Positions 28,567 to 30,943 of a stretch of DNA of 64,000 bases are shown piece after piece. The notes under the pieces are model-generated. The model saw only the letters and a program-made list of their open reading frames with translations. It had not been told where the DNA came from and did no database searches. The position numbers and the translations under genes were made by a program. Source of the stretch: Pseudomonadota bacterium (GTDB lineage: Bacteria; Pseudomonadota; Alphaproteobacteria; Dongiales; Dongiaceae); the NCBI GenBank assembly GCA_021792365.1, contig JAJYUT010000002.1, positions 248,001-312,000 on the forward strand, in the 5' to 3' direction. The first letter of the stretch is position 1, and each line of letters opens with the position of its first letter.

Positions 28567-28638
28567 GGGACTGCCTCCGCACCTGTTATTCGGCCGCTTC
28601 TTGAGGCAGGATCGCGCCGGCGTCAAGCGGAGAGGGCC

Positions 28639-28857
28639 ATGACCAATCCGGAGCGGATCTACAATTTCCTGAGAGAACGGACACCGGCGCCAGTATGTGA
28701 CGACTGCGTCGCTGGCCACGCCGAAGTCTCGCCGCGTCAGCAGGTGAATCCGGTCGCTGTAGCATTGGGCCTGACGACGGACTTCACCCGTGGAAGGGGT
28801 ACTTGCTCCATCTGCCAAGACGAAAAACTCGTCACGCGATCGCTGCGGCATTTCTAG
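28639..28857 (+). CDS. Small zinc-ribbon protein of unknown function
   Basis: 72 residues with two CxxC pairs, Cys20/Cys23 (PVCDDCVAG) and Cys56/Cys59 (GTCSICQDEKLVTR), joined by RQQVNPVAVALGLTTDFTRGRG. This is a credible zinc ribbon, perhaps nucleic-acid binding. A strong GGAGAGG precedes the ATG, which supports real translation. It diverges from the 3-hydroxyisobutyryl-CoA hydrolase gene; no partner gene follows before the SAM-II elements. Function not recognised. Confidence 0.7.
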   Translation: MTNPERIYNFLRERTPAPVCDDCVAGHAEVSPRQQVNPVAVALGLTTDFTRGRGTCSICQDEKLVTRSLRHF

Positions 28858-28906
28858 AGAGCGCCGGGCGACCGCTTGACAGCACCGCCCCGCCCTGCGA
28901 CAAACA

Positions 28907-28961
28907 GGGCGCGCCGATTTGAGCCTCAGCTTGCGGGCGCGTTACAAGTGCAGCTAAAGCG
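28907..28961 (+). ncRNA. SAM-II riboswitch-like element, first copy
   Basis: The segment has the layout of the SAM-II (metA) aptamer: a P1 stem of 28909-28915 (GCGCGCC) with 28936-28942 (GGCGCGT), the loop opening with GATTTGAG and closing with CTTGC, then TTACAAGTGCAGCTAAAG, where GCTAAA is the conserved pseudoknot strand. A terminator follows at 28970-29000. The downstream genes are osmC-metY, and SAM-II is known before methionine genes of alphaproteobacteria. A second, similar element follows at 29034. A covariance-model search would decide. Confidence 0.8.
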
Positions 28962-28969
28962 TGGGCGGG

Positions 28970-29000
28970 CCGCCCAGCTTGATCGCTGTGGCGGTTTTTT
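28970..29000 (+). terminator. Rho-independent terminator between the two SAM-II-like elements
   Basis: Stem CCGCCCAGC with GCTG-GGCGG (one bulged base, six-base loop) followed by TTTTTT on the plus strand. It begins nine bases after the first aptamer. The CCGCCC strand can alternatively pair with GGGCGG just upstream, which would disrupt the terminator, as expected for a SAM-controlled switch. It also ends any transcript from the zinc-ribbon gene. Confidence 0.82.
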
Positions 29001-29033
29001 CGTTTGGCGTCCTCGGCCGAGGCCGAGCGCGCC

Positions 29034-29080
29034 CGCGGGATTTGAGGGGCAGCTTGCACCGCGTCACCAAAGCTAAAGCG
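29034..29080 (+). ncRNA. SAM-II riboswitch-like element, second copy
   Basis: Repeats the pattern of the first copy: P1 is 29034-29038 (CGCGG) with 29059-29063 (CCGCG), the loop has GATTTGAGGGGCAGCTTGCA, then TCACCAAAGCTAAAGCG with the conserved GCTAAA. It has no terminator after it but lies 54 bases before the osmC start. The segment 29093-29098 (GCCCTC) is a perfect complement of 29122-29127 (GAGGGC), which covers the Shine-Dalgarno sequence, so control of translation is plausible. Confidence 0.75.
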
Positions 29081-29134
29081 CTGAAGGCGAAAGCCCTCTG
29101 CCCCGACTTCCGGGCGACAAGGAGGGCCCGCGCT

Positions 29135-29605
29135 ATGACCGATACACCCGACTCCCGCGTTGCGACCCAGCAGCAGGCGCTGGCCGCCGATCCCGACGCC
29201 GGCAGGATCACGCTGCATGCGGGCAGCGGCGACTGTCCCCTGCCCGGCAATCCCGATCTTCTACCGACCTTGCGCGTGCTGCAGGCTCTGGCCCAGTGCC
29301 ACGAGCAGACCTATCGCCTCTACGCCGAGGCCCTGGGCATCCCGCTGCAGGGCGTGCAGGTGCGGCTGCAGGCGGCCCTCGACCTGCGGGGCCTCTATGC
29401 CGCTGCCGACCGGATCCGCGCGGGCCTTGCCAATGTTCAGGCGACGGTCGAGATTTCCTCGCCGGCGGACATCTATGAGATCGAGCGCCTGCGGGTTACA
29501 GTCGAACGCCACGCCCCGGTCCTGGATATTGTCCGCAACGCGACGCCGGTCAGGATCGAGCTGGTCCTGACGCACAGCAACAACGCCGCGCCGATCGCGG
29601 CCTGA
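29135..29605 (+). CDS. OsmC-like protein lacking the second redox cysteine
   Basis: 156 residues with the OsmC fold pattern: NPDLLPTLRVLQALAQCHEQTYRLYAEALGIPLQGVQVRLQAALDLRG, then VEISSPADIYEIERLRVTVERHAPVLDIV. Cys55 is at the first peroxidatic position, but the second cysteine of the usual E-K-H-C-P motif is Ala127 here, so the classical hydroperoxide reductase cycle is unlikely. The ATG is preceded by AAGGAGG. It is cotranscribed with metY (24-bp gap) behind two SAM-II-like elements, which points to a role in sulfur or methionine metabolism; that is inference. Confidence 0.8.
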   Translation: MTDTPDSRVATQQQALAADPDAGRITLHAGSGDCPLPGNPDLLPTLRVLQALAQCHEQTYRLYAEALGIPLQGVQVRLQAALDLRGLYAAADRIRAGLANVQATVEISSPADIYEIERLRVTVERHAPVLDIVRNATPVRIELVLTHSNNAAPIAA

Positions 29606-29629: not shown

Positions 29630-30943
29630 ATGCCATTCTCCAGCAAGCATCCGGAAACCATCGTCCTGCATGCCGGTCACCGGCGGGACAGCGCCACCAA
29701 CGCGGTCGCCGTCCCGATCTATCAGACGACGTCCTACCAGTTCGACGATACGGCACACGCTGCCGACCTGTTCGCGCTGAAGAAATTCGGCAACATCTAC
29801 ACACGGATCATGAACCCGACGACGGACGTGCTGGAGCAGCGCCTCGCCGCGCTGGAAGGCGGCGTCGGCGCGCTGGCCTTGAGCTCCGGCCAGGCCGCGA
29901 CCGCCTTCTCGATCCAGAACATCGCGCGGACCGGCGACAACATCGTCAGCTCGACCGATCTCTACGGCGGCACCTGGAACCTGTTCGCCAACACGATGAA
30001 GGACATGGGCATCGAGGTGCGTTTCGTCGATCCGGACGATCCGGAAGCCTTCGCGCGCGCGACCGATGACAAGACCCGCGCGTACTATGCCGAGACGCTG
30101 CCCAACCCGAAGCTCAAGGTGTTCCCGATCAGGGAAGTGGCCGACATCGGCCGCAAGCTCGGCGTGCCGCTGATCATGGACAACACCTCCTGCCCGGTCC
30201 TGTGCCGGCCGCTCGAGCATGGCGCGGCGATCGTCGTCTATTCGACCACCAAGTATGTCGGCGGGCACGGCACCTCGATCGGCGGCGCGCTGATCGACGG
30301 CGGCAATTTCGACTGGGAGGCGAACGCCGCGCGCTTCCCCGGCCTCAACAAGCCCGACCCTTCCTATCACGGCGCGATCTGGACGCAGGCCGTCAAACCT
30401 CTGGGGCCGATCGCCTATATCATCAAGGCGCGCACCACCCTGCTGCGGGACCTCGGCTCCTGCATGAGCCCGTTCAACGCATTCCAGTTCATCCAGGGCA
30501 TGGAGACCCTGCCCCTGCGAATGCGCGAGCATTGCCGCAACGCGATTGCGGTGGCGGACTTCCTCGGCAAGCATTCGGCCGTGACGAAGATCTACTTCCC
30601 CGGCGTGATGACGGGCGAAGCGAAGCGGCGCGCCGACGCCTATCTGAAGGGCGGCTATGGCGCGCTGATCGGATTCGAGATCAAGGGCGGGAAGGAAGCG
30701 GGGCGCAAGTTCATCGACTCGCTCCAGCTCTTCTACCATGTCGCCAATATCGGCGACGCCCGCAGCCTTGCCATCCACCCGGCGACCACCACCCATTCCC
30801 AGCTCTCGCCGGAGGAGCAGCTTGCGACCGGCGTGACCGACAGCTACGTACGTCTGTCCATCGGATTGGAGCATATCGACGACATCCTGGGCGATCTGTC
30901 GCAGGCGCTTGAGGCTGCCGCACCGGCAAAAGCGGCGGAATAG
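29630..30943 (+). CDS. metY: O-acetylhomoserine sulfhydrylase
   Basis: 437-residue PLP enzyme of the Cys/Met metabolism family, making homocysteine from O-acetylhomoserine and sulfide. The PLP lysine is Lys208 in YSTTKYVGGHGTSIGG. The motifs NIYTRIMNPTTDVLEQRLAALEGG and SSGQAATAFSIQNI, and the C-terminal HPATTTHSQLSPEEQLATGVTDSYVRLSIGLEHIDDI, are typical of MetY, as is a length well over 400. A GAGGGGAG site precedes the ATG. Position after a SAM-II leader supports methionine feedback control. Confidence 0.95.
   Translation: MPFSSKHPETIVLHAGHRRDSATNAVAVPIYQTTSYQFDDTAHAADLFALKKFGNIYTRIMNPTTDVLEQRLAALEGGVGALALSSGQAATAFSIQNIARTGDNIVSSTDLYGGTWNLFANTMKDMGIEVRFVDPDDPEAFARATDDKTRAYYAETLPNPKLKVFPIREVADIGRKLGVPLIMDNTSCPVLCRPLEHGAAIVVYSTTKYVGGHGTSIGGALIDGGNFDWEANAARFPGLNKPDPSYHGAIWTQAVKPLGPIAYIIKARTTLLRDLGSCMSPFNAFQFIQGMETLPLRMREHCRNAIAVADFLGKHSAVTKIYFPGVMTGEAKRRADAYLKGGYGALIGFEIKGGKEAGRKFIDSLQLFYHVANIGDARSLAIHPATTTHSQLSPEEQLATGVTDSYVRLSIGLEHIDDILGDLSQALEAAAPAKAAE

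Follow-up and report, generated by a model that had tools for sequence, protein, structure and literature searches.

Architecture of the osmC-metY leader

The window, that is, the whole stretch of 64,000 nucleotides analyzed here, contains an osmC-like gene and metY downstream of it (Table 1). The leader of these genes begins at about 28905, extends up to the osmC start codon at 29135, and carries two SAM-II signatures, GAUUUGA...CUUGC...GCUAAAG, indicated here as copy 1 and copy 2. An initial annotation had proposed two SAM-II-type aptamers in tandem before osmC-metY, and this proposal is in agreement with sequence, homology, and conservation. The three motifs it listed as shared were all located twice, GATTTGAG at 28916-28923 and 29039-29046, CTTGC at 28930-28934 and 29053-29057, and GCTAAAG at 28953-28959 and 29072-29078. 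The 7-bp P1 it gave for copy 1 was right with one G-U pair, the stem being CGCGCC/GGCGCG (28910-28915/28936-28941) extended by one or at most two G-U pairs, and the 5-bp P1 of copy 2, CGCGG/CCGCG, was confirmed. Covariation between the copies stands as a comparison of paralogues but not within the family Dongiaceae, where P1 of each copy barely varies.

Transcription probably begins close to where copy 1 starts, behind a promoter candidate. The TTGACA box was present upstream of copy 1 in 12 family relatives compared by eye (TTGACT in L048), and the 17-nt spacer was counted in three of them (L036, L039, and L040), with TCTATA (L039) and CATTCT (L040) as −10-like sequences. A consensus promoter scan of 28750-29150 yielded no promoter at the candidate site. 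At the other end of the leader, the Shine-Dalgarno sequence (SD) is located downstream of copy 2, which agrees with the position of this copy near the ribosome site in the initial annotation.

Table 1. Features of the osmC-metY leader, its genes, and loci with a Cys-Cys ORF
Feature	Position	Strand	Description
Promoter candidate	28876..28904	+	TTGACA 28876-28881, 17-nt spacer, weak −10 GACAAA 28899-28904
Copy 1, predicted SAM-II aptamer	28908..28974	+	P1 28908-28915/28936-28943, L1 UUU 28918-28920, UUGC 28931-28934, GCUAAA 28953-28958
Candidate antiterminator hairpin	28962..28976	+	UGGGCG/CGCCCA, overlaps 3' strand of P2b and 5' arm of the terminator; fold of the truncated transcript
Intrinsic terminator of copy 1 (predicted)	28970..29000	+	Stem 28970-28994, U-run 28995-29000, fold −15.7 kcal/mol
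Copy 2, predicted SAM-II-type core	29034..29078	+	P1 29034-29038/29059-29063, UUU 29041-29043, UUGC 29054-29057, GCUAAA 29072-29077
Aptamer-loop strand	29046..29052	+	GGGGCAG, 7 bp possible with 29098-29104
P3 hairpin, weak in the window	29083..29098	+	GAAGGC-GAAA-GCCCUC (GGC/GCC, A-U, G-C, one A.C mismatch)
Putative SD sequestor	29093..29127	+	GCCCUCU 29093-29099/GGAGGGC 29121-29127, GCCC/GGGC 29100-29103/29112-29115; fold with the aptamer imposed
Putative alternative loop partner (anti-sequestor)	29098..29104	+	CUGCCCC; pairing statistics and SD accessibility
SD and osmC start	29119..29137	+	AAGGAGG 29119-29125, ATG 29135; sequence
osmC-like gene	29135..29605	+	PF02566, E 3e-10
metY, O-acetylhomoserine sulfhydrylase	29630..30943	+	TIGR01326, 612.6 bits, cut-off 495.1
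Cys-Cys ORF loci	L091, L129, L146, L148, L150, L151, L160, L164, L173, L182, L183, L186, L187, L191		After copy-2-type element

No Rfam family reached its gathering cut-off when the whole window was scanned; the host genome contains one more SAM-II, on a different contig, which was above the cut-off of RF00521 with 63 bits. A cmscan of 28600-29400 (801 bases) matched RF00521 to both copies over the full model, to copy 1 at 28901-28974 with 28.2 bits (E 3.1e-4) and to copy 2 at 29025-29097 with 21.1 bits (E 0.026). The Rfam search suggested in the initial annotation thus found both copies, but under the curated cut-off of 36 bits, which is a detection threshold and not a biological feature, and it found no SAM-V. 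The initial annotation had named scores below the family thresholds as speaking against its proposal; such scores were obtained for both copies with RF00521, and conservation and the covariance model R1 described below still support the two copies. Up to an E value of 10 in the same region, SAM-V (RF01826) and the SAM-II long loops (RF01726) were absent among the matches as candidates for copy 2. An antisense match of Bp2_287 over copy 1 (22.2 bits, cut-off 70) was dismissed as a chance match, and the remaining Rfam matches were far under their cut-offs.

Weak RF00521 matches with E values up to 1 occurred also in 10 of 14 control genomes, so that copy 2 could not be accepted on its Rfam score alone. 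The case for both copies as putative aptamers is carried by conservation and R1. Judged from sequence, both keep all 13 nucleotides of the SAM pocket that the text of PMC3764141 lists for the SAM-II crystal structure (U10-12, U20, U21, G22, C23, and G42-A47).

Copy 1 and the tandem in Dongiaceae

Copy 1 has in the window a P2 pseudoknot of GCUU/AAAGC. Its P2 pairs were numbered by continuing from G42-A47. Among 46 copy-1-type elements, the direct P2b pair 15-51 covaried, being formed in 31 compared to 20.3 after permutation, and so did pair 14-52, each with 0 of 2000 permutations; copy 1 of the window has U.U at 15-51 and C-G at 14-52. The initial annotation had placed a terminator after the first copy only, and a scan of 28750-29150 indeed revealed one terminator-like site, at 28981-28996 and thus at copy 1, versus 0.4 (sd 0.8) in shuffled sequences. 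A stem followed by a T-rich run was also seen by eye in the leaders of family relatives.

A hairpin following immediately after GCUAAAGC and reaching into the 5' arm of the terminator may act as antiterminator. It appeared when truncated transcripts of the window and of seven relatives (L036, L037, L038, L039, L048, L049, and L050) were folded, with both strands re-lettered in L039 (CGGUUC/GAACCG) and L049 (CGGUCG/CGACCG). The hairpin at the corresponding position of L040, L042, L044, and L046 stopped short of the terminator arm in the truncated folds; the truncation point was the first TTTT, which missed the terminator in L042, L044, L045, and L046, so that the truncated folds of these four loci are uninformative. 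The folding z values of the candidate were modest, −1.3 for the window, +0.5 for L040, and −0.2 for L038.

The family search comprised 17 Dongiaceae genomes, including that of the window, from a family placed by NCBI in the Rhodospirillales. By eye, the tandem was intact before an osmC-like gene in 13 of these 17, namely, that of the window plus 12 of 16 further genomes. Copy 1 of G009, G007, G002, and G004 was above the RF00521 cut-off with 36.2, 37, 41.1, and 41.5 bits, respectively. G003 lacks the 5' half of copy 1 and retains its GCUAAAG half, the terminator, and copy 2 before osmC. The loci L104 and L099 have no 5' half of copy 1 but keep a TTGAC box, the GCUAAAG half, the terminator, and copy 2, which represents a natural loss of copy 1. 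In G005, G012, and G016 (L204, L205, and L206), neither an osmC match beside metY nor a full-length R1 match was present in the 4.3 kb fetched; their metY orthologues are 84, 82, and 77% identical. In G009 (L036, 917-2401), osmC retains the tandem leader, and this genome yielded no metY match at E values up to 1e-100. The gene downstream of metY in the window, presumably hemB, directly follows osmC in G009. The patterns in these four genomes indicate that the tandem goes with osmC and not with metY in the family.

The copy-2 form: distribution and helices

In copy 2 and its homologues, the P3 hairpin sits between GCUAAAGCG and a short C-rich strand. The model R1 was built from 14 copy-2-type sequences, none of them from the 17 family genomes, although several seeds were metagenome bins that may belong to the family. 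It gave 71 bits (E 4.1e-14) for copy 2 of the window and 29.9 bits for copy 1. Since the 18-nt loop of copy 2 had served to choose the seed loci, the match of R1 over this loop is by construction. At the Rfam cut-offs, the copy-2-type element was called in none of 18 loci tried (of 44), and in L080 copy 1 was called. With E values up to 5, RF00521 matched the copy-2-type element in four of nine loci (L066, L069, L093, and L098; 25.3 to 32.1 bits), and in the other five the element was absent from the matches. RF01726, a published divergent form of SAM-II from Bacteroidetes and marine sequences with a model of 60 positions (text of PMC2864571), gave a single match over ten loci, L069 with 24.3 bits (cut-off 44). 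Because it is below the RF00521 cut-off and none of the 18 loci was called, copy 2 is termed SAM-II-type here and not a member of the family as defined by Rfam.

An exact scan for the 18-nt loop, with one genome per species and 84,980 species, identified 46 loci, in 44 of which GCUAAA continues the element; Kiloniellaceae, Thalassobaculum, Tistlia, Pelagibius, and Ferrovibrio are represented among the 46. R1 had matches at E values up to 0.01 in 84 of the 385 genomes of a class-wide sample, a number that includes canonical SAM-II and is not a count of the subclass. A script recognized 34 tandems, namely, the window, 20 of the 46 exact-loop loci (some of them Dongiaceae), 10 class-wide loci, and 3 family loci; it misses tandems with an off-pattern first copy, and 2 of the 34 contain no U-run between the copies. 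Outside the family, copy-2-type elements stand alone in many loci, and some are located directly before metY, such as in L074, L075, L080, L094, and L095.

Of 99 listed downstream ORFs, 72 were given to Pfam, and mostly short or frame-suspect ones were left out by eye. Those related to methionine or sulfur comprised 17 Cys_Met_Meta_PP, 15 OsmC, 9 CysG_dimeriser, and 4 NIL, plus one each of MetE N-domain, MetW, and HTS; not related to sulfur were 3 GCV_T, 2 LysR, 1 porin family, and others. The CysG_dimeriser hits, together with 10 NAD_binding_7, point to siroheme synthase-like genes after copy-2-type elements, assigned by eye from ORF starts to L058, L066, L098, L101, L113, L115, L127, L128, L132, and L138.

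A short ORF with adjacent cysteine codons (such as MIRTCIRKTRLCCCR or MTCCCP) follows closely behind 14 of 106 copy-2-type elements (Table 1). Over a wider stretch, 15 of 102 elements had such an ORF; the reverse strand gave 0, regions located further downstream 0 of 98, and shuffled sequences 0.7. The first long ORF behind it in L091 and L129 is metN-like (best NCBIfam TIGR02314, below cut-off). This Cys-Cys ORF resembles a leader peptide for the sensing of cysteine, placed here under a SAM riboswitch, a combination on which the literature search returned nothing.

For statistical evaluation of the helices, 156 elements were collected, 49 with a U-run and 92 without a U-run and with a recognized SD. 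After removal of near-duplicates, subsets of 75 or 85 elements served for the helix and accessibility tests, and 99 copy-2-type plus 46 copy-1-type elements for covariation; the copy-2 set includes a small number of copy-1 elements whose U-runs are unusual (L059, L113, and L195). Since the collecting regular expression demanded UUGC and GCUAAA, their invariance in 156 of 156 elements was not used as evidence. All permutation tests leave shared ancestry in place.

The P3 helix score of 85 elements was 16.0 versus 9.42 (sd 0.39) with the insert shuffled, and 70 of them reached the set threshold. R1 contains P3, so that elements found by R1 were selected for this helix; those from the exact-loop scan were not. 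The loop paired better with the post-P3 strand of its own locus than with that of other loci (70 elements, z 5.2, 0 of 10000 permutations), also for 24 loops without GGGC (z 3.6, 2 of 10000). In an earlier test over the whole stretch, pairing was significant for 75 elements (z 3.6, 1 of 5000) but not for 22 loops without GGGC (449 of 5000), which means that significance of the latter appeared only after restriction to the post-P3 strand. Examples of such helices are GGGC/GCCC, GAGC/GCUC, GACA/UGUC, CGGAA/UUCCG, GGAUUC/GAAUUC, and GAGGAUC/GAUCCUC. Pairing between the stretch preceding the SD and the SD region was better within a locus than after permutation among loci (z 5.8, 0 of 5000, 75 elements), for instance, as GCCCUCU/GGAGGGC in the window, GCGAUCUCCG/CGGAGAUCGC in L118, and CGAACUCCGUG/CACGGAGUUCG in L127. 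Concerning the direct P2b, pair 15-51 covaried in copy-2-type elements (92 of 99 versus 84.1 permuted, 0 of 2000), pair 16-50 was nearly invariant (98 of 99, 13 of 2000), and pair 14-52 was unsupported (68 of 99 versus 69.8 permuted).

In folds of the window, the mean accessibility of the SD was 0.26 with the aptamer imposed, likewise 0.26 without constraint, and 0.75 when six pairs of the loop helix were imposed; the respective means of 85 elements were 0.33, 0.35, and 0.46 (Wilcoxon p 1.4e-6, aptamer versus loop helix). Going from the aptamer to the loop helix, accessibility rose by more than 0.1 in 43 of the 85, fell by more than 0.1 in 10, and stayed within 0.1 in 32. Blocking of equal-length stretches elsewhere resulted in 0.366 compared to 0.459 for the loop pairing, with 11 of 85 in the opposite direction. 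In these models, the pattern fits a translational OFF switch. Without constraint, the SD of the window was already closed and the terminator already formed, with no switching visible, and for this reason switching is what we infer.

Proposed switching of the tandem, competing explanations, and meaning

Considering the sequence motifs, their conservation, the gene context, and the statistically supported helices, the leader is probably a bi-mechanism tandem SAM riboswitch of two coherent OFF switches, which would act first on transcription and then on translation, with a variant platform in the second; binding of SAM and the direction of both switches are presumed in this reading. When SAM is abundant, copy 1 would fold with P1 and the pseudoknot P2, and the terminator would end transcription. 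Copy 2 would be carried on those transcripts that escape the terminator. The text of PMC5352136 describes that the ligand of SAM-II favors the P2b/L1 triplex. With SAM bound to copy 2, the loop would be taken by P1 and P2, leaving GCCCUCUGCCCC free to pair with the SD region, which would block translation of osmC and perhaps also of metY behind it. When SAM is scarce, GGGGCAG of the loop would pair with CUGCCCC instead, and the SD would be exposed.

The opposite direction would result for copy 2 if the pairing of loop and post-P3 strand were part of the SAM-bound aptamer, as a three-way junction in which P2 and P3 are joined by a displaced P2b. In that case, binding of SAM would release the SD, making copy 2 an ON switch. 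Statistical support was obtained for P3 as well as for the loop pairing, both involve the SD-pairing stretch, and the loop pairing spares the innermost P2 pairs in many loci of the GGGC/GCCC type, all of which could be accommodated by such a junction. An ON switch, however, would oppose copy 1, since copy 1 terminates and metY provides a precursor of methionine. Moreover, the direct P2b nucleotides of copy 2 are those of the loop/post-P3 helix, so that the covarying pair 15-51 of copy-2-type elements shares nucleotides with the loop pairing, and the 7-bp pairing GGGGCAG/CUGCCCC of the window takes G29052, a P2 nucleotide. Due to the covariation of 15-51, the overlap with P2, and the folds, the loop/post-P3 helix is preferably read as an alternative state and not as a displaced P2b, and an ON switch is unlikely.

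The low Rfam scores of both copies, and G003 with its intact copy 2 and the missing 5' half of copy 1, would also fit one copy being a decayed duplicate while only the other senses SAM. This is a little less likely again, given pocket motifs that are unchanged in both copies of 13 of the 17 family genomes and the solitary copy-2-type elements in many other loci. Close variants of SAM aptamers can switch their ligand, for example, a spermidine riboswitch (PMC10853860), so that one copy may sense a relative of SAM; with the 13 listed pocket nucleotides unchanged in both copies, this is very improbable. A mere chance resemblance of two G+C-rich hairpins might be suspected from the E value of copy 2 alone with Rfam and from the weak matches in the control genomes, and is hardly credible in view of the conservation in the family, the R1 score, and the gene context. 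The preferred reading is thus the tandem of two OFF switches.

The initial annotation had regarded a two-copy SAM-II arrangement as a rarity, which does not hold. The text of PMC9481103 reports 44 tandem SAM-II examples, some of them with a terminator first and control of the ribosome-binding site (RBS) second, so that tandem SAM-II with mixed platforms is not new. The leader in the window resembles these examples in its two SAM-II aptamers, terminator and then RBS, as predicted here from sequence and folding. The passages of PMC9481103 compared here describe no extra hairpin in the second aptamer, and the main text does not contain “osmC”; the loci of the present analysis may nevertheless be among the 44. 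In Candidatus Pelagibacter ubique, a terminator-type SAM-II is likewise followed by a translational SAM aptamer, which is located before bhmT, and both osmC and metY are found downstream of SAM riboswitches, according to the texts of PMC5069961, PMC2704228, and PMC11508383. The second aptamer there is, as described in these texts, a SAM-V, by which the RBS is occluded and in which the last 3' pairing element of SAM-II is missing, whereas the window has no SAM-V match, a P3, and a putative separate sequestor. The translational SAM-II elements in the text of PMC9373788 (the Sargasso Sea element and S. meliloti metA) share with copy 2 the SAM pseudoknot and a predicted translational OFF switch; their SD is inside the P2 pseudoknot, whereas in copy 2 a C-rich post-P3 strand complements a separate downstream SD. 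SAM_alpha occurs, following the text of PMC4239095, only in Rhizobiales and Rhodobacterales and in none of the 9 Rhodospirillales genomes surveyed there. The literature searched, with subscription papers and supplements outside its reach, contained no description of the P3 form of SAM-II, and laboratories with their own SAM-II models may already know it. Novelty is in the form and platform of copy 2 and not in the presence of two copies.

On balance, and with less assurance than for the tandem itself, copy 2 appears to be the type of an undescribed alphaproteobacteria-wide subclass of SAM-II. In this subclass, P3 would follow GCUAAAG, the loop would choose between P2b and the post-P3 strand, and the P3/post-P3 strand between P3, the loop, and the SD, which would yield a translational OFF switch missed by Rfam at its cut-off. 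Part of the subclass would regulate a Cys-Cys leader peptide ORF, with SAM and cysteine read by one leader.

Control by SAM at two levels is a known design, here conserved in a family of the Rhodospirillales. Because the copy-2 form was under the Rfam cut-off in the loci tried, annotation of alphaproteobacterial SAM regulons may be incomplete; as canonical SAM-II is also present in these genomes, this form would account for only part of the gap. In the copy-2 form, different partners would compete for one strand, a switch that can be tested, and the form possibly includes a SAM-plus-cysteine leader. The association of the tandem with osmC rather than metY in the family is a hint of a role of OsmC in sulfur metabolism.
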